Of a stretch of DNA of 60,899 nucleotides, positions 1,608-60,899 are shown in pieces. Each line of letters starts with the position of its first letter. The first letter of the stretch is position 1. Location: positions 1 through 60,899 of the forward strand of contig JAGLOJ010000034.1 of assembly GCA_023139045.1 (NCBI GenBank). Reading direction: 5' to 3'. This DNA is from Candidatus Sabulitectum sp. (lineage in GTDB: Bacteria; Fermentibacterota; Fermentibacteria; Fermentibacterales; JCC-6). The notes beneath the pieces are model-generated. The model saw only the letters and a program-made list of their open reading frames with translations. It made no database searches and had not been told where the DNA came from. The translations under genes and the position numbers were made by a program.

Positions 1608-3062
1608 TTATATCCAGTCTTTCAAAGTATCGCCAGTGATTACAGCACTGACATTAACCTTACGTCTTAGTGCATCGATGATCCTCTCATCGATAGTTCC
1701 ATCCGCCACTAAATCAATATAGTGCACAGGGTGCAGTAAGCCAATTCTGTGGGCACGGTCTTCTGATTGAAGGCGTTCACCAAGCTTAAAAGTGTTACTA
1801 TAGTATATAACAGTCTTGGCAGAATGGAGTGTCACTCCCGTGCTGATGGCGGCAGGGTTGGCTATAAGAAACTGGACGTCTCCCTTCTGGAAGCTGTCCA
1901 AGGCATCTCCCCGCTTTGGGCCTGTAACCGAACCGTTAACCACAGTACACCGCTTTGCGAACACAGGATGCTGGCTGATCAGCTCTATGTCCTTGGTGAA
2001 TCTTGCCCAGATGATAGCTTTGTGGGGCAGGTCTTCGCAGATCTCGCACAATGCATCTAGGCGAGGGTTTTTGCCGGGGATCAGTTCCGTTTTGCCACCC
2101 TCCTCGTCGGACGGCAAATATCCGCAGATTATTTGCTGGAATCTCAGCATGCGGACAATGGCCAGCATTACAGGTATATCTTCCATGGCCGATTCTAATA
2201 TAAAGTCATCTTTCAACCGCTTATATATTCTCTTCTGCTGTGGGGATAGTTCGACATGCCGTTTACTATATAGCTTTGGCGGCAGATCAAGAACCTCGTC
2301 TTTTGTTACTCTGGTTCCGATAGTCTTCATAAGCTCATGAAGCAATGGTAAGTTCCGGTAGGCAACACATTGCTCGAACTTTCTTCTTTCGTTGATCCTT
2401 CGGGTTTCCCAGATACCAAAGAACTGTTTGAAGACACCAAAGTCCGGCAGGTCTATATCCTTCCATATCCTCGACTCAATAAAACGGAATTGGTTGTATA
2501 GGTCGAACGGGCTATTGTCACAAGGAGTCCCAGACAATATGCGTTTCATAATGGCGACATCTTTGCTGGACGTAATACGTCTGGACCATTTACCGTTCGG
2601 GTTCTTAATCCTTTGGCTTTCGTCCAAGACATACATACACTTATTACCCTTAAGGAATGCCCTCCATGCTTTATTGCCGCCCTCTGTTAGTAAAGCATTA
2701 TAACTAATGACGAACACTTTCGGTCCATCCGTATACTTCATCATATCATTAAATGACCGTTTATGTTTTATCGTATTGGTGCTATACCATATATGGCACT
2801 TGGTGCGATCAAATACATCTTCCGGCATATGTGCTGGTAATTCATCGGACACCCAATTACGATGAACCCCGTTCGGGGCCACAACACAGAGAGCGTCAAC
2901 CTCCCCAGCATCGTAAGCTGCCACGGTGGTGTCTATAACGGGTTTCGTTTTACCTGTCCCTTGCTCCCAGAACAACGCCCTCCTGGGCTTTTCCCCATGA
3001 ACAATCAACTCATCCTTTTGATGGTCAAAGGGTTTTGTCTTGTACCTATATTCGAATGTCAT
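1608..3062 (-). CDS. SNF2-family (superfamily 2) DNA helicase/translocase
   Basis: 484 aa from the start chosen here. Helicase motifs in order: Walker A EQGTGKTK (GTGKT at about 35-39), motif II DESQ (about 147-150, a DEAH variant), motif III LSGTPCDNSPFDLYNQ, and near the C-terminus motif VI QSEDRAHRIG. The spacing and the LSGTP/EDRAHRIG signatures are those of SNF2 ATPases, which translocate on double-stranded DNA. Phage members are thought to act in replication fork or recombination remodelling. The ATG at 3062 overlaps the upstream stop as ATGA, which I prefer over the longer reading frame. Translation is probably coupled to the metallopeptidase gene. Confidence 0.85.
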   Translation of the reverse strand: MTFEYRYKTKPFDHQKDELIVHGEKPRRALFWEQGTGKTKPVIDTTVAAYDAGEVDALCVVAPNGVHRNWVSDELPAHMPEDVFDRTKCHIWYSTNTIKHKRSFNDMMKYTDGPKVFVISYNALLTEGGNKAWRAFLKGNKCMYVLDESQRIKNPNGKWSRRITSSKDVAIMKRILSGTPCDNSPFDLYNQFRFIESRIWKDIDLPDFGVFKQFFGIWETRRINERRKFEQCVAYRNLPLLHELMKTIGTRVTKDEVLDLPPKLYSKRHVELSPQQKRIYKRLKDDFILESAMEDIPVMLAIVRMLRFQQIICGYLPSDEEGGKTELIPGKNPRLDALCEICEDLPHKAIIWARFTKDIELISQHPVFAKRCTVVNGSVTGPKRGDALDSFQKGDVQFLIANPAAISTGVTLHSAKTVIYYSNTFKLGERLQSEDRAHRIGLLHPVHYIDLVADGTIDERIIDALRRKVNVSAVITGDTLKDWI

Positions 3063-3607
3063 TTGTTTATCCAGTTCTGTGCTGCCGTTAAATGTTTCGG
3101 CGAGTCCTTTAATATCTTTGTCCAATGCCTATCGATAGAAGGTTTTAATTCTAGCTCCTGGGTGAGAAAGTCGTATCGCCCAGGGACTGCTTCCTTCAAC
3201 AAAGTAGGATTTAGTATAAATAGTCTACTGGTCTCTGCAAAAGATTCATGATAGTTCGGCTCGTAAGAGCTTATTCGTTTAGTCGTCTTGGTTATCTCAA
3301 CCCATTTCCCCCACTGCTTTCTATTAAAGAAGACCGTCTTCTCAAACCAGATGTGGTGCCCACACTCATGAGCTATTATACCATAGATCGTTCGGTCGGC
3401 TTTATATCCGGGATAGGACCACCTCCTGACAGGATTTAAAGCGGGCACCGAGGATCTAGCTATGTTATAGCGTACCAAACCTCGATGATACTCACCATAA
3501 TTCTTACAACCTTCTTTGAACTCTGGTAACCGAATACCGTTAAGCTCCAGAAAGTCAACACACTTATCGTGAGCTATGTCAGCAGCTTCTTGTTTATTAA
3601 ATGTCAT
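3059..3607 (-). CDS. Putative zinc metallopeptidase-like protein (HExxH)
   Basis: 182 aa. Residues about 78-87 read IIAHECGHHI, with His80, Glu81 and His84 forming a zinc-binding HExxH. A downstream Glu in HESFAETSRLF (about 120-130) is a good third ligand, as in gluzincin-type peptidases. No signal peptide is present, so it would act in the host cytoplasm. The target is unknown; processing a phage protein or inactivating a host or defence protein are both possible. It overlaps the genes on both sides by ATGA junctions. Confidence 0.6.
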   Translation of the reverse strand: MTFNKQEAADIAHDKCVDFLELNGIRLPEFKEGCKNYGEYHRGLVRYNIARSSVPALNPVRRWSYPGYKADRTIYGIIAHECGHHIWFEKTVFFNRKQWGKWVEITKTTKRISSYEPNYHESFAETSRLFILNPTLLKEAVPGRYDFLTQELELKPSIDRHWTKILKDSPKHLTAAQNWINK

Positions 3608-48288: not shown

Positions 48289-48744
48289 CTATTCTACAAT
48301 ATATTCTACGAACACCATTCCTGCTTCACCGAGAAGCTTTTTTGTCATCTCTATATCCTGGCTCCATCGCTCCATAATATCGTCGCTCGCTTTGATCGTC
48401 ACCACACGAGTAATGCCGGCTTGTATAATGTGGGGTGTACACCGAACACATGGGGCAAATGGAAAGGCATATAAAGTATATCCATCTAATTTCTCTGCTG
48501 CATTTAAGATCGCGTTAAGCTCGCTATGTACAGTAAGTTTATATTTCTCTTCCCTGTCGGCCAGCCTTTTTGCTGTATCCTCTATGTTACGAGGAAAACC
48601 GTTATATCCAAGGGAGACGACAGTATTGTCCGGTCGCACAATAACACTGCCGCATTTTGTGCTTGGATCTTTGGACCACGTTGATATCAATTTACACATT
48701 TGCAGGAAACGTAAGTCCCATTTTCTTATTCGCTCAGCGTCCAT
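48289..48744 (-). CDS. dCMP deaminase
   Basis: 151 aa. Zinc-dependent deaminase motifs HSE (His73, Glu75) and PCVRC (Cys99, Cys102), plus the N-terminal DPSTKCGSVIV, identify deoxycytidylate deaminase. It converts dCMP to dUMP, the substrate of the thymidylate-synthase-like enzyme at 53753. Strong AGGAGG site. Confidence 0.9.
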   Translation of the reverse strand: MDAERIRKWDLRFLQMCKLISTWSKDPSTKCGSVIVRPDNTVVSLGYNGFPRNIEDTAKRLADREEKYKLTVHSELNAILNAAEKLDGYTLYAFPFAPCVRCTPHIIQAGITRVVTIKASDDIMERWSQDIEMTKKLLGEAGMVFVEYIVE

Positions 48745-49109: not shown

Positions 49110-49426
49110 TTCAATTTATCCTCATCAAATTCCTCAAAGGTGACCTTGGCTTTACACTCCTGTACCTTACCATTGAGAAAATACCTAACCCAAACATCAC
49201 CATCCTCTTCGCCATTACCGTGTAATTTGAGAATAGTATCTTTGAATTTAATGCTGGCTTGTTTCATTTCATCTTCATAGTCATACCACTTCACACACGC
49301 TGATCCAAACAGCACCTTGGTCATGTCATAACCAGGCCCCTGAAGTGTTTCTATGAAGTTGGCGACTTGAAACACATCAACCTTGTCACCAACAATACTC
49401 AATTTATAGGTTGTGTAATATCCCAT
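49106..49426 (-). CDS. Hypothetical protein
   Basis: 106 aa from ATG 49426, overlapping the polymerase stop (TAATG). Opens GYYTTYKLSIVGDKVDVFQV, a beta-alpha-beta start, then an acidic C-terminal half. It resembles in general shape small phage proteins of unknown role near DNA polymerase. Confidence 0.55.
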   Translation of the reverse strand: MGYYTTYKLSIVGDKVDVFQVANFIETLQGPGYDMTKVLFGSACVKWYDYEDEMKQASIKFKDTILKLHGNGEEDGDVWVRYFLNGKVQECKAKVTFEEFDEDKLK

Positions 49427-51342
49427 TATGCTGCTTCTCCCCAACTTGGTCCAATTTCAACGTCCACCTTAGATGGTACTTTAAGTTCCACACAATATCT
49501 CATAATATCCGCCATCGCCTCTGCCTGCTCTGGGCTTTCCACGGTCTGTCCAATTTCATCATGAACTTGTAACTGTATCTTAAATCCGGCCGCATCAGCA
49601 GCTATCATGGCTATTTTAGTCTGGTCCGCAGAGGAGCCCTGTATAAGCCTATTAAGAGCTTTGTATGTCCCATCGAACTTACCTTCGGCCAGTTCTTCGA
49701 ACCGACACCTACGACCGCTGAGCGTCTTAATGTACCCTATTTTATTGGCCCGGGCCTGGGCTTTCTTGTCCAGTTTACTTACAAACGGAACCTGGCCGTT
49801 GAACTGGTTAATAATAGCCTGAGCCTGGTCCCCGGCGACCTCCACATTACGGCCCGCCCTGGTGACGATCCATTTAGTTGGCAAGCCCAGGTCACGAGCA
49901 AGCTTGGCTCCTCCCATTCCATAGCATATCCCGAGGAAGATAATCTTCGCGAAGGTCCGGTGCTGCTTACTGGGCTTTTCGTTATCTGCGTAACCGAAGA
50001 TTAATCTCGCCATCATAGTATGGTTATCTGCATCTGGGTCGTTGCAATATTTCTCCATTGCAATTTTGGCTCCCGCACAACCGGAAAGGACAGCGAAGTG
50101 AACTAACATCCTTGGCTCTTGCTGGGAGTAGTCATTCGCTGTCCACAATCCTCCATCATCGGGAATATAAATACTTCTCCACATCTGAGCAAAGTCATCA
50201 CGACTTGGCTGCTGTTGGAGATTAGGTTGCGTACAAGACAGACGACCGTAACGGGCTCCACTATTGCTACCAAGGTCGTCTGTCTTACGCAGTTGGTTAA
50301 AGGTGCAATGGATTCGTCCGCCAGTTGCATGATTGCGAACTGACTGAGCGAATGTGGTTCGAAGTTTATTTACTTTCCTGGCTCTTAAGATAGCCTCTGC
50401 CACGGGATGTTTAATAGCACCCAATAAGTCAGAATCTATACTTGGTTCATTAGTTTTGGGAGTGCGAGGAACCTTCACACCAATAGACGTCAATGCTGGT
50501 TCCAACATTTTTGCCTTCCACACATCGCCCAGGGGGATCCGGACGTTGGTGAGATGGTGTACTTTGTCCAAGCACCCCCGTTCCTGGGTTTCAGACCACT
50601 GTTCAACTTGGTCTAACTTATCCCAGTCTATTAAAATCCCACGGCGACGCATTTTGACGAGAACTGGCAACACCCTGCTCTCCAAGTCATACACACCCCA
50701 TAGGTCTTGCTCATCTATTATTCTTTCTTGTCTCCGCAACAATTGCAAAGGTAAGACGGCATCTTGTTCTCCATAGGCCCCGACAAACCTTGCCGGCAAC
50801 TTCCACATTTCTGATTTAGGGTTTATCTTCCAGTCTTCCGCTGCCTTCCTTAATAAAGTTTCATCTTTACCGGGGATCCCCCATCGTGTAGCAATGTTTT
50901 GCAGACTGTAAGAATCATATAGTTCATTAATTAAAGGATCAGCAATTTGCACATCCCTGAACCATTCAACCAAGCGGAACACAATTCCCATCTCGGCTAA
51001 GTAATCCAAGTCATAAGGTAAGTTGGCTCCAACTAAAGTACCCTTGAATACTTTCGCCTGATCTTTAAGGTACTGGACGGCTGCATCTGGGTTAGCAACA
51101 TTATCGCCACCGGCATGCCGTATTGGCACATAGTAACTTGGACCATCTTCAATAGCAAATGAATAGCCGACAACATAACCGCCCCGACGGACTCCTGGTC
51201 CTAACTTTGTTAACAGTGGATCATTCGTTTCCGTATCTATGGAAATTCTCTTAGCATCTTTCCAACTTGGTAGGTCAGATACTTTCGGAGGTCGCCAGCT
51301 GCATTCCGACTGGAATAATGGTAGTTGGATTCCAAAGGTCAT
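49426..51342 (-). CDS. polA: Family A DNA polymerase with 3'-5' exonuclease domain
   Basis: 638 aa. Exonuclease Exo I DTET (about 36-39), then palm motifs A DYSQQEPR (about 404-411), B HRTFAKIIFLGICYGMGG (about 460-477) and C QVHDEIG (about 593-599). No 5' nuclease domain. In motif B the residue equivalent to E. coli Phe762 is Leu (KIIFLGICYG). It replicates the phage genome with the primase-helicase. Start overlaps the Nudix stop (TAATG). Confidence 0.92.
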   Translation of the reverse strand: MTFGIQLPLFQSECSWRPPKVSDLPSWKDAKRISIDTETNDPLLTKLGPGVRRGGYVVGYSFAIEDGPSYYVPIRHAGGDNVANPDAAVQYLKDQAKVFKGTLVGANLPYDLDYLAEMGIVFRLVEWFRDVQIADPLINELYDSYSLQNIATRWGIPGKDETLLRKAAEDWKINPKSEMWKLPARFVGAYGEQDAVLPLQLLRRQERIIDEQDLWGVYDLESRVLPVLVKMRRRGILIDWDKLDQVEQWSETQERGCLDKVHHLTNVRIPLGDVWKAKMLEPALTSIGVKVPRTPKTNEPSIDSDLLGAIKHPVAEAILRARKVNKLRTTFAQSVRNHATGGRIHCTFNQLRKTDDLGSNSGARYGRLSCTQPNLQQQPSRDDFAQMWRSIYIPDDGGLWTANDYSQQEPRMLVHFAVLSGCAGAKIAMEKYCNDPDADNHTMMARLIFGYADNEKPSKQHRTFAKIIFLGICYGMGGAKLARDLGLPTKWIVTRAGRNVEVAGDQAQAIINQFNGQVPFVSKLDKKAQARANKIGYIKTLSGRRCRFEELAEGKFDGTYKALNRLIQGSSADQTKIAMIAADAAGFKIQLQVHDEIGQTVESPEQAEAMADIMRYCVELKVPSKVDVEIGPSWGEAA

Positions 51343-51791
51343 TATTTGAGTGGTCCTGCATACCTACTGGTGATTATAGATCTAATAAAGTTTTCCGTCA
51401 AGTTATCTTTCAGGAACGGTATCATCCAAGTCATGTGCGGTGCTAAATTATCTGGCAGACTTTTAATCCGCCAAATGAGAACCTCTTCATCCTCACATGT
51501 TTTTACTTGCTCCAGCAACTCAGTTGAACATGCATAGTAGAAGTAAACCATGAACGATCCTTCTTCTCCTGTGATGACACAATATTCTTTAAGGAGATCT
51601 GCAGGAATTTTCACCCCGCCCTCTTCTTCGAATTCTCGTATCAGTGCAGGGATAGATGACTCTCCTGGTTCAAACTTACCTCCAAGGGCATTCCACTTAC
51701 CAACAACACATTCAGGGCCACGCTCCTTATGAATAAGGGCCACACGTTCCATGTCATCGTCAAATAATAATCCTGCTACATATCGTATCAT
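51342..51791 (-). CDS. Nudix hydrolase
   Basis: 149 aa from ATG 51791, chosen for AAGGA eight bases upstream; an in-frame ATG at 51854 that overlaps the previous gene is possible. The Nudix box is complete (residues 38-60: GGKFEPGESSIPALIREFEE then EGGV). Such phage enzymes cleave nucleoside diphosphate derivatives, cleaning or shaping the dNTP pool, which is of interest next to base-modification genes. Confidence 0.88.
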   Translation of the reverse strand: MIRYVAGLLFDDDMERVALIHKERGPECVVGKWNALGGKFEPGESSIPALIREFEEEGGVKIPADLLKEYCVITGEEGSFMVYFYYACSTELLEQVKTCEDEEVLIWRIKSLPDNLAPHMTWMIPFLKDNLTENFIRSIITSRYAGPLK

Positions 51792-51843
51792 TTTTGATTC
51801 CTTAAATCTTTCCTTAACCCACGACTCTCCGCATGGGGTGCTT

Positions 51844-52188
51844 TCAAAGTTCATCTCGTAACACAGCCTTTGTGGCGTCCTTCAAACTATACATCTCATA
51901 CACCTTATCAAAATCTTTATGGTTTATAAACGCTGTCAGGGCGGATTGGTAATCACCATCAGGGCAAGCAAGATCTATACCGCCCCTTTTGGAGAATTCT
52001 TCCGGTGAGACATTAATCAGCACCCAGTGTATTGTGCCCTTTATCCTCACACAAGAGAGATAGTATATTCCATCGGTGCCCTTTCTTGCTACATGTGTAC
52101 GACACTTTGTAGCTTCCGTGACAGGTATGAACTCATACAGACATTCCCATTCGCTCTTTGTGATTCTTACCAGTGTCTTGTATATCAC
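51844..52188 (-). CDS. Hypothetical protein (GTG start)
   Basis: 114 aa. GTG start with GGGGAT upstream, overlapping the previous stop. Beta-rich first half (TKCRTHVARKGTDGIYYLSC), helical end. No recognised motif. Confidence 0.5.
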   Translation of the reverse strand: MIYKTLVRITKSEWECLYEFIPVTEATKCRTHVARKGTDGIYYLSCVRIKGTIHWVLINVSPEEFSKRGGIDLACPDGDYQSALTAFINHKDFDKVYEMYSLKDATKAVLRDEL

Positions 52189-52439: not shown

Positions 52440-53381
52440 CTAACTCCCTGCATTTATGAGACAACTATCACATACAACCTTGTCATTTCTTATTGGCTTA
52501 CTGCAATCCTTACATAACTTATACGGAATCGCACCACCAGATAATCGCCGGGTTGCTTTCTCAAGACAATCATCACATACAGCCTTGTCATGACTTATCG
52601 GAGTATTACACTCGGTGCATTTGCCAGACAGAGCACACTGGTGATCGTTAACCTTTTCTTTCATCGCACAATTGCTGCACAGATCTCTGCCCCCTTGAGT
52701 ACTCACAGGTATTCCGCATTCTAGGCACAGATGGTCCAGGTCCTGATAAAGGTGCTTCTTGTCGGTTGATTCAGCTTTCCCCTGTTTAATATTGTCAATA
52801 CAGGCCAAACTACAGAACGATCCTGGGACATCAGTGTCTCCCCATATAAGTTGTCCAGGTGGGATGGTTTTATGACAAGAGGAGCAAACTGGTGTTCCTT
52901 CCGCTCCTCCTCGTGGAGCTTTGTCCGCACACCAATTAGCCTTCCTCGCTTCTATCTCCGCCCCCTCCTTCTTCATGCACATGTAACAAAGAAGTTCCTC
53001 AACTCCAGGCGATGCATAGAGTCTGGGCACTATTTTACGGCATCGCTGACACACCCTAACATTGTCAGGTTGCTTCGGTGTCCCGGCCTTCCTCGCTATC
53101 ATTTCCGCTTCTACCAACAAAAGGTATCGACGGAGATCACGGATATCGTCTATAATACCCTCTGGGCGTTGGTCATCTTGGATTGCCTGGAATATATCCC
53201 AGCCCTTTTCCTCGGCTTGCTTTTCTAAGCGATCCCATTTACGGGCCAGCATCATAAACGCACCAACACCGCCACGCTTCTTCCAGCTGTTGCCATAATT
53301 TTTCTGAGCCTCCAGCAAAGAGTCCACGTCTCCGAGAGATACCGTGCTCAACTTATCGAGATACTTTTCATCTTTAGACAT
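52440..53381 (-). CDS. MazG/Nmad-like domain fused to a string of zinc ribbons
   Basis: 313 aa. Residues about 28-95 (YGNSWKKRGGVGAFMMLARK, WDRLEKQ, DDIRDLRRYLLLVEAEM) form an all-helical domain resembling phage nucleotide pyrophosphohydrolase/nucleotide-modification-associated families. The C-terminal 200 residues hold about five zinc-ribbon units (CQRCRK, CSSCHKT, CLECG, CTECN, CKDCSKP, each with a distal CxxC). The helical part may hydrolyse a dNTP so that a modified one replaces it; the ribbons may bind DNA. Function inferred. GAGGGG site. Confidence 0.55.
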   Translation of the reverse strand: MSKDEKYLDKLSTVSLGDVDSLLEAQKNYGNSWKKRGGVGAFMMLARKWDRLEKQAEEKGWDIFQAIQDDQRPEGIIDDIRDLRRYLLLVEAEMIARKAGTPKQPDNVRVCQRCRKIVPRLYASPGVEELLCYMCMKKEGAEIEARKANWCADKAPRGGAEGTPVCSSCHKTIPPGQLIWGDTDVPGSFCSLACIDNIKQGKAESTDKKHLYQDLDHLCLECGIPVSTQGGRDLCSNCAMKEKVNDHQCALSGKCTECNTPISHDKAVCDDCLEKATRRLSGGAIPYKLCKDCSKPIRNDKVVCDSCLINAGS

Positions 53382-53760
53382 TTTTTGTCCCCTCGACTAA
53401 ATCCAATAATACATTCAATAATGATTTATGTTCAGTCCGTTCTATAGGACCGTTGGCAATGACAAACTTGATACCACTGAGTGTATCACTGTGCAGCATA
53501 AATGCCATACCAAGATCAAACTTACTGCCCTCGGTCAAGTCACCATCTACTAACCATACATGAACTTCACAACAGTCAGACATGGCCATACAATGCACAT
53601 CGCAAATATCCCTCGCTGACTGAGTCTGGATCACATCACGAAGAGGATAATGTACCTCACACCCCTGGGCCTCCAGGAAATTAACATAACTATTCATACC
53701 ATGTATGGTATGAAGTTTAGCATCACGAACGGGGCTAATTAAATATACTTTCTTAACCAT
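53374..53760 (-). CDS. Nucleoside 2-deoxyribosyltransferase-like protein
   Basis: 128 aa. The start KKVYLISPVRDAK, the middle DICDVHCMAMSDCCEVHVWL and the EGSKFDLGMAF motif (about 77-87) match the fold of N-deoxyribosyltransferases, with Asp where the catalytic Glu often sits. Phage members accompany DNA base-modification genes and may hydrolyse or exchange a base on a nucleotide. Starts inside the end of the thymidylate-synthase-like gene. Confidence 0.6.
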   Translation of the reverse strand: MVKKVYLISPVRDAKLHTIHGMNSYVNFLEAQGCEVHYPLRDVIQTQSARDICDVHCMAMSDCCEVHVWLVDGDLTEGSKFDLGMAFMLHSDTLSGIKFVIANGPIERTEHKSLLNVLLDLVEGTKNV

Positions 53761-54781
53761 TTTTCTCCATCCTCTTTTGTAACCAGTTACAACATGCCAA
53801 GGTCCAATCCAAATTAGGGGGCATGTCCAATAATATTTGCAGAGACGTCATTCCTCGTGTCTCTTTAGGCTGAGACTTATAATTCCTTATCGCTTTCAAC
53901 ATAGGTCCAGCAACCCCACTCATAAATCTACTGTGAACGCCCAGGGGTAGGTCTTCGCCACTGAGCAAAAAGTCAGCGGCATCGAAAAACTTGTCTCCGC
54001 TAAGGGGGGGCATCATAGGTCGATACGACACCAACCCCTGTGAGTAATAATCATACCTATCTCTTTGATTAGACGGGAAGGCCTCGTTTGCTACTTCGTT
54101 CATCAGCTCTTCGTGGTGGTCTAGGTACAAGTGCATATTATTGCTGAACTGATAGTATCGTCCAATGCCGCAACCAATCCACAGGGCCATGAATTCCTGG
54201 AGGAAAGACATGTGTACAGCATTGGCTCCCAACGCACCCCACACTATATCGTTGCTGCGATTACATACAGTCATATCCAATTCCTGCTTCTCATTATTAC
54301 GAGAGAAGTAGATTTGAGTATTGCACGGTAAGTCTTTGCTGTCCTGTAAGCGTAAATCATTAGCAGCATCCCACATACTCATGACCTGTCGACGGCATGT
54401 CGGATTCTTCTTCAGAGCCTCAACGATAGTGGTTATCTGGTCAAAGCCAAAGTGCTTCCGCCATCGATAGCCGTATGCACCCTGCATTGTTTTGCCATCG
54501 TCAGAATATTCTTCCATACGCTTAACAATACTGGCAGGAAACGTAACATCATTTCTTCCCGCTAACATCCACACCGACTCCAATAAGTGGAAAAATGGGT
54601 TGGCGTCACGCTTCGGGTGAAACAGTACCCTCTCCCAGGGCCGTTCATACGTGATACAGACAGGGGTAGGGAAAGACAATACCCTACCGTTGCGGGTCTC
54701 GTTAAGGACACCACACTCTCTGATCTGATGCATCATTTCCGGAAAGATCTGATTTACGTTTCTGCCTTGTATTGATATCAT
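53753..54781 (-). CDS. Thymidylate synthase / pyrimidine hydroxymethylase family enzyme
   Basis: 342 aa. LPCNTQIYFS carries the catalytic Cys (Cys153); NRSNDIVWGALGANAVHMSF keeps the Asn equivalent to the one that selects dUMP (Asn187); NNMHLYLDHHEE is the substrate-binding HxYxxH region. It is longer than ordinary ThyA and diverged in the loop, as in phage dUMP/dCMP hydroxymethylases. It could make dTMP or 5-hydroxymethyl-dUMP; the neighbours favour the latter. GAGGAAG site. Confidence 0.75.
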   Translation of the reverse strand: MISIQGRNVNQIFPEMMHQIRECGVLNETRNGRVLSFPTPVCITYERPWERVLFHPKRDANPFFHLLESVWMLAGRNDVTFPASIVKRMEEYSDDGKTMQGAYGYRWRKHFGFDQITTIVEALKKNPTCRRQVMSMWDAANDLRLQDSKDLPCNTQIYFSRNNEKQELDMTVCNRSNDIVWGALGANAVHMSFLQEFMALWIGCGIGRYYQFSNNMHLYLDHHEELMNEVANEAFPSNQRDRYDYYSQGLVSYRPMMPPLSGDKFFDAADFLLSGEDLPLGVHSRFMSGVAGPMLKAIRNYKSQPKETRGMTSLQILLDMPPNLDWTLACCNWLQKRMEKNG

Positions 54782-55569
54782 TTTTCTTCCTCGCTAGACT
54801 TGAAAGCTTTTTTCCAATAGCATACAACGTCATATCGCTCCTGACCTTGCCATGCTCCCTTTGTTTTCTTCTTTACTACACGCACAAAGCCAGGATGCAA
54901 CTCAGCTAAATATTCAGCATTGGCTTTCAACGCATCTAATTCTCGCTCAGGTGCTCCGCTCATACCGCCAGGGGCCATCGATTCAGCCTGTCCCTGTGCC
55001 CACCAGTAATAAACCATATTGGGATAACCCAACCGCAGCAATCTTAATGTGAGGTCAAAGTCTTCTCGATTGTCCAGGCGGTAATCGATACCTTCCTTAT
55101 TTAATACGTCTAGGTCTAGGCCAACCAATCGAATACATCGTGTGTTTAGCACACTATATTCTTCAACTCGATTGTTACCTTCACGACAAGAGATACCTAC
55201 ATGAGCAAAAGTACTTAATGTTGTATCCACACACGTGAACATGTCAATAATTTCCTCTGAAGTTTGGTTCCGTAGATTATAAGCTTTCTCACTCCTACGG
55301 ATAAGGAACTTCAGGTCATCATCCACCAAGGCCATATGGCCAGAATCTGCATGCTTCAATATATTGTTACGGGTAGGTTGGACACCAACCGCACCAATAG
55401 TAAGGATTGTGACCTCCTCCAGGCCGATCCTATCAATTAAGTTTTGATAGCTCGATGCCTCCTCTGGGCGAACCACCAAGAATGCCGGCAAGGTTTTGGG
55501 CCAGTACCATAATGTCCTGGCCCGTCTACCTTGATGTCTACCGTACGACGGTATATATATCTTCAACAT
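54778..55569 (-). CDS. TAGT-like glycosyltransferase (GT-A fold)
   Basis: 263 aa. YIPSYGRHQGRRARTL at the start, VGVQPTRNNIL, then ALVDDDLKF (DDD at 83-85, metal/sugar-nucleotide site) and RLDNREDFDLTLRLLRLGYP are the layout of phage TET/JBP-associated glycosyltransferases, which add sugars to hydroxymethylated bases in DNA. It overlaps both neighbours, so it is co-translated with the hydroxymethylase-like and HMUDK-helical genes. Confidence 0.65.
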   Translation of the reverse strand: MLKIYIPSYGRHQGRRARTLWYWPKTLPAFLVVRPEEASSYQNLIDRIGLEEVTILTIGAVGVQPTRNNILKHADSGHMALVDDDLKFLIRRSEKAYNLRNQTSEEIIDMFTCVDTTLSTFAHVGISCREGNNRVEEYSVLNTRCIRLVGLDLDVLNKEGIDYRLDNREDFDLTLRLLRLGYPNMVYYWWAQGQAESMAPGGMSGAPERELDALKANAEYLAELHPGFVRVVKKKTKGAWQGQERYDVVCYWKKAFKSSEEEK

Positions 55570-56417
55570 TTATATCTCCTCTTCATCCGCATTCCTAGAT
55601 GTTTCACCTTAGCATACTTTGCATATTCACAAAGCCAATGCTCTGCCTCACGCATTTCCCAGGCTGGCCACTCTTGCGGCCAGTACTTTTCATTCTTACT
55701 ACATTCTAGCAATTGTTGCATTGCAGCAATGGACACCTCCCGTGTACTCGCACGATAAGGCACGCTGGTCAATGTACCATCCACCAACCAACTCAGTCCA
55801 GCACATGCCCCTGGACCAGGAACTGCCCAAGTATTAATGTCGCGGGCATCGTCGAGAAATATTGTGTGACGCATATCACTAGTGATCTCATAAGCCATAA
55901 AGCTGCCAATGAACTGACACTTCATTAATATTTCCCATTGCTGCTGCAAAGTAGTTGGGCATGACTGATTGGTCACTCGTAACCGTGCCTTGATTTTCTT
56001 TACGATGTATAGGACACCTTCCAACTTATTCTTACCGGTCGGAGTCTTGATAACATAAGCAGCCCCGACTAATGGTTTAAGGCCAGTCAGCTTCCGGCGT
56101 GCCTTTCGGGTATCCCATTTTTCAAACAGCCCTGCTTCCTTAATAATCTCCAGTGTCTCGATCCTATTAATCAATCGACAAAGAGATAAGTTGAACACCA
56201 TACGATGATAGTCTACATCTAACTGACGAACATTCATCTCTATCCAATTAGAAACTTTATCGTGTTCGCGATGGACATTACAAAAACGCCATTCCTGGAA
56301 TATGGGATCTTTAGTGTACGGTGCGTCCTTATACAATGCATCCTTATTCATATGGATCTGGTACCGCTCTCTGGCAGTCTTAAAGTATTCTGTTATGTGT
56401 TTACGGTTCAATTTCAT
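55563..56417 (-). CDS. HMUDK-helical/aGPT-Pplase-type base-modification protein
   Basis: 284 aa from ATG 56417 (AAAGGAG site). The helical signature DPIFQEWRFCNVHREHDKVS (about 37-56) then RLINRIETLEII, and C-terminal GPGACAGLSWL, match the helical domain found with 5-hmdU DNA kinases and amino-acid/putrescine-thymidine transferases. No P-loop kinase partner is visible here. Its adjacency to the TAGT and hydroxymethylase-like genes supports a DNA hypermodification role. Confidence 0.6.
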   Translation of the reverse strand: MKLNRKHITEYFKTARERYQIHMNKDALYKDAPYTKDPIFQEWRFCNVHREHDKVSNWIEMNVRQLDVDYHRMVFNLSLCRLINRIETLEIIKEAGLFEKWDTRKARRKLTGLKPLVGAAYVIKTPTGKNKLEGVLYIVKKIKARLRVTNQSCPTTLQQQWEILMKCQFIGSFMAYEITSDMRHTIFLDDARDINTWAVPGPGACAGLSWLVDGTLTSVPYRASTREVSIAAMQQLLECSKNEKYWPQEWPAWEMREAEHWLCEYAKYAKVKHLGMRMKRRYKC

Positions 56418-56432
56418 CACAACTCCTTTGGT

Positions 56433-58631
56433 TTATATCTCACATCTCTGTCCAGAGCACTCAATGCCAGCATCGAGTTGTTCCATTCCAGGCTCCTGCA
56501 TTTTGGTCCAGTCAACGGGCACATAGTTCTTTATTAAATAGTTCCACTTGCTTTCATCGGCAGCAGTGACTTCTTCTCTCGGGGCGAAGGGAAATTTCTT
56601 ATCAAGTAAGTGCGGAGCGAAGGACATAGCTGCCACGCATTTTATGTTACTTTCAATATCTTTGACGACACCATCTTTCTCTTCTGGGTGCATCGTAACG
56701 GTGGCTGAGACATTATGAGTCAAGTCTTCGCTCTTGTCTCTTGTTCCTGGGGCAACCCAATTATTGTAAGTTGAGAAGATATACTGCATAAATTCTTTTG
56801 CTGGCATATCCTTAACAAACTTGCTGCCTTCTGGGGCTTCAACTGGGAATACAATACACAAGTCACCATTAGGTTTTTCCTCGACCATGTGAGGATTATA
56901 TTTACGGAAATGGATCAATGCTGGCTCCAAAGGATTGGCTGTTACTCTGCGGAAATATCTCGGTGCGTGATGAGGGTGTATCCCACAAGCCACACCACCC
57001 AGTTCCAGAGGAGCTGTGCCTCCTGGCTTAATAGTTGTCGCCCGTTTAGCCGGGTTTATGCCAAGCTGCTCTGCTATGATACTGTTTATGTTTAACACTT
57101 CAGCGGCAGCGGCCTGTTGTAACTGGGGATCAAATGCTAACTTTGGATTGTCCATCATACCAGTAATACCCACACCAAGTAAAGCATCACGAGCAGCAAT
57201 CGCTTCAGTGGTGGAACCAAGATAAGGGAACTTATTATAACCAGCCTGTAAAGTACCTATTACAGCAGCGGCCTTAGCTGCCATGACAAAGTCGCCGGGA
57301 TCCTCACAAGCAGCTGCGTTAATCTCACACAGATTACAAAAACTAAATCCAGTCTGGTCATTTATTCTAGGATGGAGACCAATCTCACCACAAGGATTAC
57401 ATCCATAATTCTTGTCATCGCTGAGGAAGAATCCCGGATCGCCATAACCTTCTTCGGCAATGGTGATAATACGCTTAAAGTCTTTATGTCTGGAGGGGCT
57501 GCTCCGCAACAGCATGGCAGCATTATTCGCCATGGCACGCTGTGCATTCAGGGCCATCGGATCATAATTACCAGCAGCCTTAGCGTAAAGCATTTCAGTG
57601 TCATTAGCAGAGAAGATACACATTAAGCTACTACGACGAATTCCGCCAGCCAATACAGCCTCCGCCAAGTAACAGATAATATCATGACATTCTATAGGCC
57701 TCAGCTTACGACCCTGGGCCTTTTCCAAGACACCTCGGATATTCTCCAAAGAACGCTTCAACGGTAGATGCCCAGGGGCTCTGCCTCCGCTGGTCACCAG
57801 GGGGCTGCCTTCGGGGCGGATCTTAGAGAAACTGAATTCTATGTAGAACCCCTCTACGAAACTGGTCATCAACATTTTAACCGCATCGCCCCAACCTTCT
57901 ATTGTATCCTGCACAACCCAATGAAAAACCTTGCTTTTGCTAATATGTGCCAGTTTAGGTAATTTGTCTATGTGGCTCCACTGGACCGAATACCCAACAC
58001 CACAACCGCATAACAAAAGATAGAGAATTTGACCGAACGCTTCAGGACGATCCGCCAGTGTGTATGCACAATTATATAATCTGGCATTATTATCTTCTAT
58101 CGCCTTACCGGCAAACTGCATAGAACGCATAGACGGCAGAACCTTCTTAGCGTAAACGAACTCAAATGCCTCCTCTATAAGTTTATTAGTGTACCGACCA
58201 TATGCTTGATACTTCAATAAATGCATAGCCTTTACACGGCTAACTGTTTCGGAAAAGGTTTCGCGTCTCTCTAGATCAGAGTCATAACGGGAATACTTGC
58301 TGAGATGGATATAATCGGCCAACGCATTTGGATCTGGCTTCCTGCGTTCTTCTCTGGCCTTGGCATGCTCATGACGATATACAATATATCTTTTGGCAAC
58401 TTCCTGATATTGTTTCATCAACTCCTCTTCGACCAAGTCCTGAATCTTTTCTATTCCTATGACATCGCCATCACACTGCTCTGCCACTCTTTCGGTCACC
58501 TGGTTCACCAAGGCATTCACATCCCCATTAGCAATCAAAGGTTCACCATCATGGTTGGCCATGTGTAAAGCCTTTATTATCTTCCGTCCATCAAATAGTT
58601 GTAATGTCCCGTCGCGTTTTTGTACTCTCAT
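56433..58631 (-). CDS. nrdJ: Adenosylcobalamin-dependent (class II) ribonucleotide reductase
   Basis: 732 aa from ATG 58631 (AAAGG site); longer frames run into the helicase gene. An N-terminal ATP cone (KRDGTLQLFDGRKIIKALHM) precedes the barrel, with RLYNCAYTLADRPEAFGQIL, LLCGCGVGYSVQ, the finger-loop cysteine region NPCGEIGLHP, and TTIKPGGTAPLELG. The C-terminus CSGQRCEI carries the redox Cys pair. There is no small-subunit gene, consistent with class II, which uses B12. It makes deoxynucleotides for phage DNA. Confidence 0.88.
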   Translation of the reverse strand: MRVQKRDGTLQLFDGRKIIKALHMANHDGEPLIANGDVNALVNQVTERVAEQCDGDVIGIEKIQDLVEEELMKQYQEVAKRYIVYRHEHAKAREERRKPDPNALADYIHLSKYSRYDSDLERRETFSETVSRVKAMHLLKYQAYGRYTNKLIEEAFEFVYAKKVLPSMRSMQFAGKAIEDNNARLYNCAYTLADRPEAFGQILYLLLCGCGVGYSVQWSHIDKLPKLAHISKSKVFHWVVQDTIEGWGDAVKMLMTSFVEGFYIEFSFSKIRPEGSPLVTSGGRAPGHLPLKRSLENIRGVLEKAQGRKLRPIECHDIICYLAEAVLAGGIRRSSLMCIFSANDTEMLYAKAAGNYDPMALNAQRAMANNAAMLLRSSPSRHKDFKRIITIAEEGYGDPGFFLSDDKNYGCNPCGEIGLHPRINDQTGFSFCNLCEINAAACEDPGDFVMAAKAAAVIGTLQAGYNKFPYLGSTTEAIAARDALLGVGITGMMDNPKLAFDPQLQQAAAAEVLNINSIIAEQLGINPAKRATTIKPGGTAPLELGGVACGIHPHHAPRYFRRVTANPLEPALIHFRKYNPHMVEEKPNGDLCIVFPVEAPEGSKFVKDMPAKEFMQYIFSTYNNWVAPGTRDKSEDLTHNVSATVTMHPEEKDGVVKDIESNIKCVAAMSFAPHLLDKKFPFAPREEVTAADESKWNYLIKNYVPVDWTKMQEPGMEQLDAGIECSGQRCEI

Positions 58632-58641
58632 CGTTGGTCCT

Positions 58642-59859
58642 TTATCTAAAGTTTTGGCAAATAGTAATCTTCTTAGCTGCTCTTGTGATCGCTGTGTATA
58701 ACCATTGCCTGGCCGTCCCATTAAATACACAGCTCTCATCGAACACCAACACATTGTCCCACTGACTCCCCTGGGCCTTGTGTGTTGTCAAGGCATACCC
58801 AAAGTCAAAGCATTGTGCACTGGTAATCTCCCAATATGGTAATTGTTTCTCAGTACCTTTGAAATAATGTTCATGTGCGAATATTTCTAAGCTCCCGCAA
58901 TCCGGATTCGTTATTCTCAACAGATACTGCCCACAGTTCAGGTCTTCGGCATGTAGTACCTCCCACAAGGTTCCATTTAATAAATTCATTTCATGATCAT
59001 TACGTAAGCATACCAACTTGTCACCAGGGACAGGACATGGGTTCTCCCCGTGGCCTAACAATTTCCTCATTTTGGCATTGCATTGTCTCCTGGACTTATT
59101 AGTCCCTACCAGTATTTGATCCGCATTCATCACAACATCAACTTCCGGCTTACCGTCTACAATAGTTGATTCTCCATATTGCCCAGGGTAAATCCTCTCG
59201 CCTGTGCGGACGGCAGTGGCCAACTCGATAATTGGGTTACCCCTGGCTTGTCGGTGGATTTCGGTAAGCAGTATGTCTGGCTTCTGGTTGGTGAAATAAC
59301 CACCACCGCCCACTGGCGGTAACTGTGCGGGATCTCCTAATACTAATATGGGAACACCGAAACTTTCTAAGTCTCGGCCCATTCGTTCATCCACCATACT
59401 ACATTCATCAATAATAACCAGGTCGGCATATTCTATTACAGAATCGTGGTTAAGCTGGAAGAACGGCGTCCTCAGCTTTTCCTCTTCTTTTCCGATGGCC
59501 TTCTTCAGACGTATTAGCGAGTCGTTGGTTTCCCGATCCTCCTCAGCCAAACCCTCGAACGTCTTCTCATATAGTTTTTGCAGCTCATGTAGTTTTCTTT
59601 TGCTGCGATCGGCGGGCATGTATATCAACTTATGGATAGTCATGGCACCTTCGCAACCTTTGGCCCGTAGCACGCTGGCAGCTTTGCCAGTATAGGCAGC
59701 AAACAATACATTGCCAGCTCCCAATGCTAAATGTGTGGCCAGGGTAGTTTTACCAGTACCTGCGAAACCAAACAATCTAAAGGTTTGCTGCCTGCCGGTA
59801 CTATCTAGCCAACGACTGACTGTATCCAAAGCAACTTGTTGTTGATTACTCCATTCCAC
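58642..59859 (-). CDS. SF1 helicase, Dda/RecD2-like
   Basis: 405 aa from GTG 59859, chosen because GGAGG lies seven bases upstream; a longer TTG frame lacks that. Motifs: I GFAGTGKTTL (about 31-40), II IIDECSMVDE (about 149-158), GDPAQLPPVGGGG, and VI ALTTHKAQGSQWDNVLV plus LYTAITRA. A 5'-3' helicase role at the fork or in recombination initiation is expected. Its start overlaps the end of the preceding gene. Confidence 0.88.
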   Translation of the reverse strand: MEWSNQQQVALDTVSRWLDSTGRQQTFRLFGFAGTGKTTLATHLALGAGNVLFAAYTGKAASVLRAKGCEGAMTIHKLIYMPADRSKRKLHELQKLYEKTFEGLAEEDRETNDSLIRLKKAIGKEEEKLRTPFFQLNHDSVIEYADLVIIDECSMVDERMGRDLESFGVPILVLGDPAQLPPVGGGGYFTNQKPDILLTEIHRQARGNPIIELATAVRTGERIYPGQYGESTIVDGKPEVDVVMNADQILVGTNKSRRQCNAKMRKLLGHGENPCPVPGDKLVCLRNDHEMNLLNGTLWEVLHAEDLNCGQYLLRITNPDCGSLEIFAHEHYFKGTEKQLPYWEITSAQCFDFGYALTTHKAQGSQWDNVLVFDESCVFNGTARQWLYTAITRAAKKITICQNFR

Positions 59860-60337
59860 CTTTGGTCCTCCATTCAAACGCTTCGCATTCTTTATCTTTT
59901 ACACCATCAAAGTTACAGCATCCATAAATGACGCAGCTCCTGCCGCTTTCCCTTAAATTGTCACAATTCCTACATATCTCTTGTTGGAAGATATTAACGT
60001 CATATTTCCCAACTCGGCACACGCTGGCTTCAACATGGCCCCGCACGGAACCGTAGTTAATACCATCATTACCATCACACAGGACAAAATTGCTCTTTGC
60101 TACACGTTCAACCTGCCATCGGCTAATCATAAAGTGTACCGGCAAGATAGGGCCAACGATATAGTGCTCTTTCATCACATCCTGCTGCTCTTTCAGCACA
60201 TCCTCAATAATTTTGATTATCCTGGCTCCCCCGGTTTCGTTAGGTAACCATTTTTCAGAGTCAACGATAACCTTCTCATACACCAAAGACTCAGAATTCG
60301 GCCAAAGAAGTTTTCTTACTTTTACTATTAATGCCAT
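59846..60337 (-). CDS. Hypothetical protein with C-terminal Cys cluster
   Basis: 163 aa. The first 110 residues are an alpha/beta domain; the end has CRNCDNL...CVIYGCCNF...C, probably a zinc site. TAATG overlap with the HNH stop. Function unknown. Confidence 0.55.
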   Translation of the reverse strand: MALIVKVRKLLWPNSESLVYEKVIVDSEKWLPNETGGARIIKIIEDVLKEQQDVMKEHYIVGPILPVHFMISRWQVERVAKSNFVLCDGNDGINYGSVRGHVEASVCRVGKYDVNIFQQEICRNCDNLRESGRSCVIYGCCNFDGVKDKECEAFEWRTKGGME

Positions 60338-60870
60338 TATTCCATCCTCTCGTAATATCCTCTGGCAGCTCTCTTAACACAAGTAAGAGACGACCCGTAA
60401 AGTTCGTAATAGTGATTAAACAAAACCCCCATGTACCCAACCTGAGCTACTTGATAACCCTTTTTCTTTCGCTCCGTCATATGAGTGAGAAACGCTTTCC
60501 GTATCGCCTGGGCTTGGGCTTTGGTCATAGTTACCAGTGGATGACTAAATCCCTGTATCTGCGTTCCATGTTCTATACGGTCCGCAGCATTAGTCTTATC
60601 TGTTCCCCACGCTAAGTTGTCGGCATGGTTATTCCCGCGATCTCCGTCCAGATGTCGAACCAGAGTCGCCCCTGGGCTTTTACGTTCCGTGAACGACATA
60701 AGGACCAACTGATGCACCTTACAATTAAACTTTCTGCCAAGTACATACAGTGTAACTTTTTTATAACCCTTCCAGGTTTGTTGCTTCAGAATTTGCCCAG
60801 AGGGGGAGCGTACTTCGCCCTCGTCGGAAACTTCGTAGAGAGTGTTGTGTATATTCTTCCATTCTACCAT
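60337..60870 (-). CDS. HNH homing-type endonuclease with NUMOD4-like N-terminus
   Basis: 177 aa. The N-terminus WKNIHNTLYEVSDEGEVRSP is the NUMOD4 DNA-binding motif; LVRHLDGDRGNNHADNLAWG is the HNH catalytic core (about 71-90); an AP2/helix-turn-helix-like segment ends the protein. It is probably a free-standing homing endonuclease. It starts directly after the tRNA-like element, with GAGGG from the acceptor arm as ribosome site, suggesting insertion beside a tRNA gene. Confidence 0.8.
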   Translation of the reverse strand: MVEWKNIHNTLYEVSDEGEVRSPSGQILKQQTWKGYKKVTLYVLGRKFNCKVHQLVLMSFTERKSPGATLVRHLDGDRGNNHADNLAWGTDKTNAADRIEHGTQIQGFSHPLVTMTKAQAQAIRKAFLTHMTERKKKGYQVAQVGYMGVLFNHYYELYGSSLTCVKRAARGYYERME

Positions 60871-60875
60871 TATCC

Positions 60876-60899
60876 CTCGGTGGGATTCGAACCCACGTT
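60876..60899. repeat. 24-bp terminal direct repeat (right copy)
   Basis: Exact copy of bases 1-24. It carries the T-arm of the tRNA-like element, whose 3' end continues into 60871-60875 just upstream of the HNH endonuclease start codon. It supports a circular or terminally redundant molecule. Confidence 0.9.

Follow-up and report, generated by a model that had tools for sequence, protein, structure and literature searches.

How might a phage hypermodify the pyrimidines of its DNA without the P-loop 5-hydroxymethyl-deoxyuridine (5-hmdU) kinase? We address this question with a 60,899-nt stretch from Candidatus Sabulitectum sp. (the window), which is one entire contig, JAGLOJ010000034.1, of assembly GCA_023139045.1. 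Between positions 52440 and 56420, five minus-strand open reading frames (ORFs) from the window's ORF list overlap in series. They follow the order in which a first-pass annotation, made from the letters alone, had placed the genes of a DNA-base hypermodification cluster: an HMUDK_hel protein, a TAGT-family glycosyltransferase, a thymidylate-synthase (TS) family enzyme, a deoxyribosyltransferase-like protein and a MazG/Nmad-like protein fused to five zinc ribbons. From the gene families and their exchange between loci, we suggest, with a probability of about 0.6, that this phage makes a sugar-decorated thymine analogue and that HMUDK_hel is a factor shared by several kinds of transferase. The earlier observation of the cluster is partly confirmed, and its interpretation is partly supported.

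Gene families and the absence of a kinase match

The 54778 and 55563 proteins, which would have undermined the cluster had they belonged to unrelated families, were both placed by Pfam in the families named for them. The 55563 protein matches HMUDK_hel (PF18723) with 130.7 bits against a cut-off of 25, over positions 3–276 of the 281-position profile and thus nearly its full length. Its start is either GTG 56420 or ATG 56417, and it is 39–40% identical to PaMx11 gp50 and Ab18 ORF13 (32–40% when YuA is included). The 54778 protein matches TAGT (PF20691) with 49.6 bits against a cut-off of 27.5 (50.1 bits in a second run). The proposed thymidylate-synthase or hydroxymethylase relationship of the 53753 protein also holds (Thymidylat_synt, 8.4e-25, 87.8 bits against 24.3); it is 45–51% identical to PaMx11 gp51, Ab18 ORF14 and YuA gp17, and 49–51% identical to those of Ab18 and PaMx11.

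As had been noted before, no P-loop 5-hmdU kinase was found in the window, either by tblastn with reference proteins or by a profile scan of its ORFs, and a kinase profile search of the whole assembly returned 12 weak matches, none of them in the window contig. Nor was ADDT (PF18724) found in the window, where three reference ADDTs gave no match at E 0.01 and the ADDT profile gave none. The first-pass annotation had left open a sugar- or an amine-modified pyrimidine. The sugar is favored by the TAGT protein and by an Asn in the TS, while the amine is disfavored because the window yielded no kinase and no ADDT. The evidence supports production of a hypermodified pyrimidine without a P-loop kinase.

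Exclusive and exchanged partners of HMUDK_hel

We compared the locus with viral contigs in two IMG/VR scans, which took the best 80 of at least 571 HMUDK_hel candidates and the best 80 of 217 TAGT candidates, with flanks of up to 8 kb. Alignment queries were used; single-sequence queries of viral contigs gave no matches. With our own profiles we then searched 175 sources: the 160 loci, 13 chosen phage stretches, the window and a copy of the window. Among the HMUDK_hel-scan loci, 49 carried the kinase, 20 carried TAGT, 11 carried neither and none carried both (Fisher 2.4e-11, not corrected for kinship). The TAGT-scan loci contained HMUDK_hel in 78 cases and the kinase in none, in a scan biased by its four query rows, all from phages with TS beside TAGT, and with T6-type TAGT not represented. 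Kinase and TAGT occurred together in 0 of the 175 sources. Because the flanks reached only 8 kb, we also searched whole records: the kinase was found in 0 of 30 TAGT records and TAGT in 0 of 30 kinase records, with 12 of 12 positive controls recovered by each profile (hand-chosen samples of 30 from 100 fetched TAGT loci and 30 from 49 kinase loci, many of the records being fragments). We dropped the idea that HMUDK_hel is a mere kinase subunit, since 20 of the 80 loci fetched with it carry TAGT and no kinase. Contrary to what its name implies, HMUDK_hel is not kinase-specific.

Other partners were also recognized (loci bear our own L numbers). HMUDK_hel is paired with a GT-B glycosyltransferase in nine loci, two by Pfam, three by clustering and four by a profile built here. 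Among the HMUDK_hel-scan loci with neither kinase nor TAGT, GT-B is present in L077 and L080 on Pfam evidence (PF00534) and in L070, L073 and L079 on gene-family evidence. A methyltransferase occurs in L081, and clustering places an FkbM-family gene in L086 and L087. We initially took ORFs of L092 and L094 as GT-B-like, but they had no Pfam match and were not counted. L077:8838-11180 combines HMUDK_hel with GT-B and an FkbM methyltransferase, and L080:8818-11674 combines it with GT-B, a gene of the cytidylyltransferase family and a weak likeness to choline kinase, gene sets that suggest other sugars or CDP donors.

The partners have changed repeatedly. We built a careful HMUDK_hel tree, leaving out nine divergent or doubtful rows, rows shorter than 231 aa and rows without a kinase, TAGT or GT-B label, and thinning the remainder at 68% identity. 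Its 75 rows (46 kinase, 24 TAGT and 5 GT-B) require at least 17 partner changes; the starred branches alone force 8 changes for the kinase and 10 for TAGT, and TAGT formed a single clade in 0% of 200 bootstrap trees. A quick tree of 145 rows requires at least 12 kinase/TAGT changes. The labels are more clustered than shuffled ones (17 changes versus a mean of 25.1), and partners are therefore partly inherited. Eight rows, split evenly between TAGT and the kinase (four each), make up the starred set to which the window's HMUDK_hel belongs. The window TAGT groups with that of L015, apart from those of L016, L019 and L020 (bootstrap rough), while the HMUDK_hel proteins of the window, L015, L016, L019 and L020 group in one starred set of five (L020 was thinned out of the 75-row tree and lies beside L016 in the 145-row tree). 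Since the two groupings differ, they suggest that the TAGT gene itself has also been exchanged among these relatives.

Gene order is conserved around the exchanged genes. Relatives of the window carry homologues of its 1608–3125, 1051–1596, 150–983 and 58642–59877 genes, in this order, then a large ORF that is the same ribonucleotide reductase (RNR) in the window and L015, an RNR that the corresponding ORF of the other relatives does not match. Next come HMUDK_hel and a stretch of variable content, and after these TS, small genes and the polymerase. The variable stretch holds TAGT in the window, L016, L019 and L020, TAGT and a radical SAM enzyme in L015, and an inositol-phosphate synthase, an ADDT-like protein and a kinase in L017 (assigned by Pfam) and, judged by resemblance, in the L018 fragment and in L021. 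In L022, HMUDK_hel is immediately preceded by ADDT and kinase. That related phages pair HMUDK_hel with a kinase instead of TAGT points to a kit of exchangeable parts with which viral DNA is disguised.

Two variants of the stretch are worth recording. In L017:8938-12027, L021:8759-11848 and L018:1810-4785, a myo-inositol-1-phosphate synthase (PF01658 by Pfam in L017) accompanies the kinase and the ADDT-like protein, which scores just under the cut-off, hinting at an inositol-derived base in these relatives. Radical SAM/SPASM enzymes occur at L015:10099-11055 and L094:8471-9472, and one radical SAM gene family is present in 8 loci, 4 with TAGT, 3 with the kinase and 1 with neither.

Proposed role of HMUDK_hel, predicted modified base and sugar

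In the pathway that we propose, dCMP deaminase would supply dUMP, the TS-family enzyme would make 5-hydroxymethyl-dUMP, and kinases, of the host or as yet unassigned, together with the phage polymerase would bring 5-hydroxymethyl-dU into DNA. After replication, TAGT would O-glycosylate the hydroxymethyl group, probably with a sugar taken from a nucleotide-sugar of the host. HMUDK_hel would serve as the shared core factor for engaging hydroxymethylpyrimidines in DNA; its most likely task would be to bind the base and flip it for the transferase of the phage in question, of whatever kind.

Structure prediction offers some guidance on this last step. The AlphaFold2 model of HMUDK_hel (predicted local distance difference test 96.1, predicted template-modelling score 0.92) matched nothing among PDB structures at E 0.001, and the sequence matched no PDB sequence at E 1. 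The best structural match was MutY (E 0.24, probability 0.69); among the 50 PDB matches listed, some 17 were DNA glycosylases, which had the highest probabilities and reached template-modelling scores of 0.49, whereas prenyl or terpene synthases made up about 20 more, none of them scoring above 0.16. Against viral models there were nine matches at E < 0.001, including annotated 5-hmdU kinase helical domains, aGPT-PPlase1 and a 637-residue SP10 protein named 5-hmdU DNA kinase. The ADDT model also resembles that of HMUDK_hel (E 0.011, probability 1.0). Fourteen residues (R19, F46, N48, R51, D54, R82, F174, D182, G202-P203-G204, C264, E265 and K268) are 99–100% conserved in 220 rows from viral and genome contigs, 49 of which are stand-alone copies on genome contigs. 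According to PMC4111573, the T4 beta-glucosyltransferase glucosylates 5hmU in duplex DNA only when it is mispaired with G; a 5hmU:A pair may consequently need help, which makes a flipping aid plausible.

Several observations weigh against HMUDK_hel as a transferase partner. The glycosylase likeness is not significant, and comparison of the HMUDK_hel and ADDT profiles gave a probability of 9% (hhalign, E 0.0037). Among 78 genome-collection loci (flanks of at most 7 kb, many of them on short contigs of metagenome-assembled genomes), 51 have HMUDK_hel, its core residues kept, without TS, kinase, ADDT, TAGT or GT-B profile matches, and 10 more have HMUDK_hel and TS with no recognized transferase. 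Similarly, 6 of the 11 HMUDK_hel-scan loci without kinase and TAGT show no recognized transferase in their limited flanks. A transferase partner is therefore not universal within these flanks. A commercial 5hmdU DNA kinase (NEB), given ATP, phosphorylated about 20% of the 5hmdU in SP8 DNA (PMC7653180), and activity of the purified M6 kinase on this DNA is mentioned as an unpublished result in PMC6449724; because the kinase works on SP8 DNA without HMUDK_hel, the protein is not strictly needed for it. In addition, the Microbacterium phages CaptainRex (L009) and Guetzie (L010) pair HMUDK_hel with an Asp, cytosine-type TS; one of the two has two TAGT genes, and the other has a PF18751 P-loop kinase beside HMUDK_hel.

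The 51 stand-alone loci (for example L205, L209, L222 and L242) come from archaea, Patescibacteria and Alphaproteobacteria, among others. In L189, L191, L196, L197, L210 and L211 (Hyphomicrobium-like and other bacterial contigs, one of 2.7 Mb), HMUDK_hel and TS adjoin the conserved 94-aa domain described below, with no recognized transferase.

HMUDK_hel might instead be an enzyme in its own right, acting at the C5 hydroxymethyl of DNA pyrimidines independently of the transferase, for instance by turning undecorated hmdU into T or by installing another group, with TAGT still sugaring the rest. The fourteen near-invariant residues would fit such activity, as would the stand-alone copies, the in vitro action of the kinase without HMUDK_hel, the HMUDK_hel-like predicted fold of ADDT, and a Cys that is also invariant in the ADDT C-terminal motif overlaid by hhalign on that of HMUDK_hel. 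However, we recognized no reductant or cofactor motif by eye and, to our knowledge, the protein has no known activity; it is also strongly associated with transferases in viral loci and occurs with cytosine-type TS as well. We regard this alternative as tentative and somewhat unlikely. The evidence pulls two ways, towards a partner of several transferases and towards a protein with its own job, and the partner has a slight lead; the role of HMUDK_hel is unsettled.

A broader proposal, which we hold to be doubtful, would make HMUDK_hel the catalytic core of post-replicative hydroxymethylpyrimidine tailoring, with a glycosylase-like fold, an invariant Cys-Glu-Lys and free-standing relatives in archaea, Patescibacteria and Alphaproteobacteria. 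Into this core, phages would plug different enzymes, among them kinases, radical-SAM enzymes and glycosyltransferases of the GT-A or GT-B type; the window would represent its sugar branch, whose product, glycosylated 5-hydroxymethyl-dU, would be a phage counterpart of base J.

The base itself can be approached through the TS. Asn at the TS specificity position selects dUMP and Asp selects dCMP (N177 in E. coli and D179 in T4). At the equivalent position, 187, the window has Asn, as do 164 of 168 other rows (the window's own copies left out); L009 and L010 have Asp there and two fragments have a gap; the T4-type gp42 of CC31 aligned one column off, with its Asp visible alongside. The window TS also has no Trp where, by eye, we presume that ThyA W80 would fall, the alignment containing no ThyA row. 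On its sequence, the 53753 enzyme is assigned to the dUMP-hydroxymethylase type, and because Asn187 and a dCMP deaminase are both present, hmdU is the likely acceptor for modification. Alternatively, the TS could act on dCMP and TAGT could decorate hydroxymethylcytosine (hmC) as in T-even phages. TAGT acts on glucosylated hmC in T2/T6 (PMC13216743), and the annotated neighbors of T4-type TAGT are dCMP hydroxymethylases. The prevalence of Asn, with Asp confined to the two Microbacterium rows, the similarity to the Ab18 and PaMx11 TS and the dCMP deaminase make this cytosine alternative very improbable.

The TAGT protein would attach the sugar. Its D83–D85 (DDD) is invariant across 29 aligned TAGT rows and aligns with the same motif in the T6-type TAGT protein of phage CC31. 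The DDD motif is metal binding in GT-A enzymes. Sequence comparison of TAGT with PDB gave chance-level matches only. The closest public-phage relatives are those of a Manatee Spring phage and of Brevibacterium phage LuckyBarnes, and TS adjoins TAGT in both. HMUDK_hel, TAGT and TS occur together in 77 of the best 80 TAGT loci, which speaks against chance co-location. In PMC13216743, a GT-A fold is reported for T6 TAGT, phage TAGTs group beside the cellular GT2 family, and solitary TAGT genes are counted in 288 of 753 phage genomes. The cluster might act on free nucleotides or another polymer, with TAGT a surface or lipid glycosyltransferase and TS an ordinary thymidylate synthase, as the GT2 grouping would allow and given that DNA modification is predicted from genes, but the regular company of HMUDK_hel and TS and the exchange of TAGT with a DNA kinase make this very improbable.

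If a sugar-decorated thymine analogue is indeed made, O-glycosylated hydroxymethyl-dU would join the known phage DNA disguises, and a domain named for a kinase would become a shared module of unrelated chemistries. The same HMUDK_hel and TS with different transferases should then yield different bases, and host readers of DNA sugars, such as DNA glycosylases and type IV restriction enzymes, would be natural counter-defences. A kinase-free sugar route also suggests what some solitary TAGT genes may do.

Known systems and neighboring genes

The nearest counterparts are YuA (M6-like), PaMx11 and Ab18, Mesyanzhinovviridae phages in which HMUDK_hel, a dUMP-hydroxymethylase-type TS, polymerase and dCMP deaminase stand in similar order. 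Their HMUDK_hel comes directly after a P-loop protein (above the Pfam 5-hmdU kinase cut-off in YuA, weak in PaMx11 at E 0.002), with ADDT nearby, whereas neither was found in the window, which has TAGT between HMUDK_hel and TS. LuckyBarnes gp38–41 bring together TS, two TAGT and an HMUDK_hel protein, with no kinase match in the fetched stretch; they differ in the second TAGT copy and in an HMUDK_hel (gp38, annotated hypothetical) only 25% identical to that of the window. TAGT has been described beside TS and aG/PT-PPlase1, which we take, from annotations under HMUDK_hel matches, to be the HMUDK_hel family, in Clade II of the HTVC023P-type pelagiphages (2022, PMC9599517). The available part of that paper reports them as auxiliary genes and proposes neither kinase exclusion or exchange nor a sugar-hmdU product.

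The beta-glucosyl-HMC-alpha-glucosyltransferase of T2/T6 shares PF20691 and, through the T6-type protein of CC31, the DDD motif, yet it adds a second glucose onto glucosylated hmC (PMC13216743) and is accompanied in CC31 by a dCMP hydroxymethylase. Base J of kinetoplastids is of the product type predicted here, an O-glycosylated 5-hydroxymethyl-dU, but there JBP1/2 produce the hmU within DNA and JGT glucosylates it (PMC6449724).

A search of open-literature titles and abstracts showed none that deals with a phage carrying sugar-hmdU or with the swap of kinase and TAGT next to HMUDK_hel; Lee 2018/2022, Iyer 2013, Wen 2024 and Pyle 2024 may bear on the matter. The earlier suggestion of a possibly new route holds in part: HMUDK_hel with TAGT and TS and without a kinase is common among TAGT loci of viral contigs, and the co-location is already in print for pelagiphages (PMC9599517).

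Table 1. Genes of the cluster and its surroundings, with window coordinates.
Feature	Coordinates	Strand	Evidence
Ribonucleotide reductase, immediately upstream of cluster (context)	56433..58754	-	phrog_367 6.5e-104; ATP-cone 1.5e-18
HMUDK_hel (PF18723) protein, 285 aa; candidate shared core factor of kinase-type and glycosyltransferase-type loci	55563..56420	-	Pfam 8.8e-38
TAGT-family glycosyltransferase (PF20691), 263 aa, DDD at residues 83-85	54778..55569	-	Pfam 6.3e-13; phrog_842
Thymidylate-synthase family, dUMP-hydroxymethylase type, 342 aa, Asn187	53753..54781	-	Pfam
Nucleoside deoxyribosyltransferase-like protein, 128 aa, role uncertain	53374..53760	-	PF05014 E 0.066, below cut-off
Conserved ~94-aa helical domain (about 53085-53375), then five CxxC..CxxC pairs resembling zinc ribbons	52440..53381	-	
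Nudix hydrolase, probable nucleotide-pool enzyme	51342..51854	-	PF00293 4.4e-10
Family A DNA polymerase (context)	49426..51342	-	PF00476 2.5e-56
dCMP deaminase, likely dUMP source	48289..48744	-	PF00383 6.1e-18

The downstream dCMP deaminase and Nudix hydrolase expected from the first-pass annotation were both recovered by Pfam, and two small ORFs lie between the 52440–53381 gene and the Nudix hydrolase. The deoxyribosyltransferase-like label of the 53374 protein retains a weak PF05014 likeness, with a score under the cut-off (13.8 of 28.8 bits); homologues occur in L015, L017 and L025, and no PDB sequence matched at E 1. The MazG/Nmad label of the 52440 protein was not confirmed. Its 94-aa domain had no Pfam or NCBIfam match and chance-level matches only among PDB sequences, and its four-helix model gave no significant Foldseek match (pyrophosphatase AF1178 came second, E 4.9). 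The domain occurs in 109 of the 175 sources, the window and its copy counted, and the whole gene family in 123 of 174. As for the five zinc ribbons, the five CxxC..CxxC pairs are present in the sequence, while Pfam zinc-ribbon matches, including double zinc ribbon, fall under the cut-off.

A 24-base direct repeat at 1–24 and 60876–60899, unique within the assembly, bounds the window and by eye resembles a tRNA T-arm. We did not adopt it as an attachment site, because a tRNA search found none spanning the end-to-end junction. An HNH endonuclease lies at 60337–60870, with a NUMOD4 match just under the cut-off.

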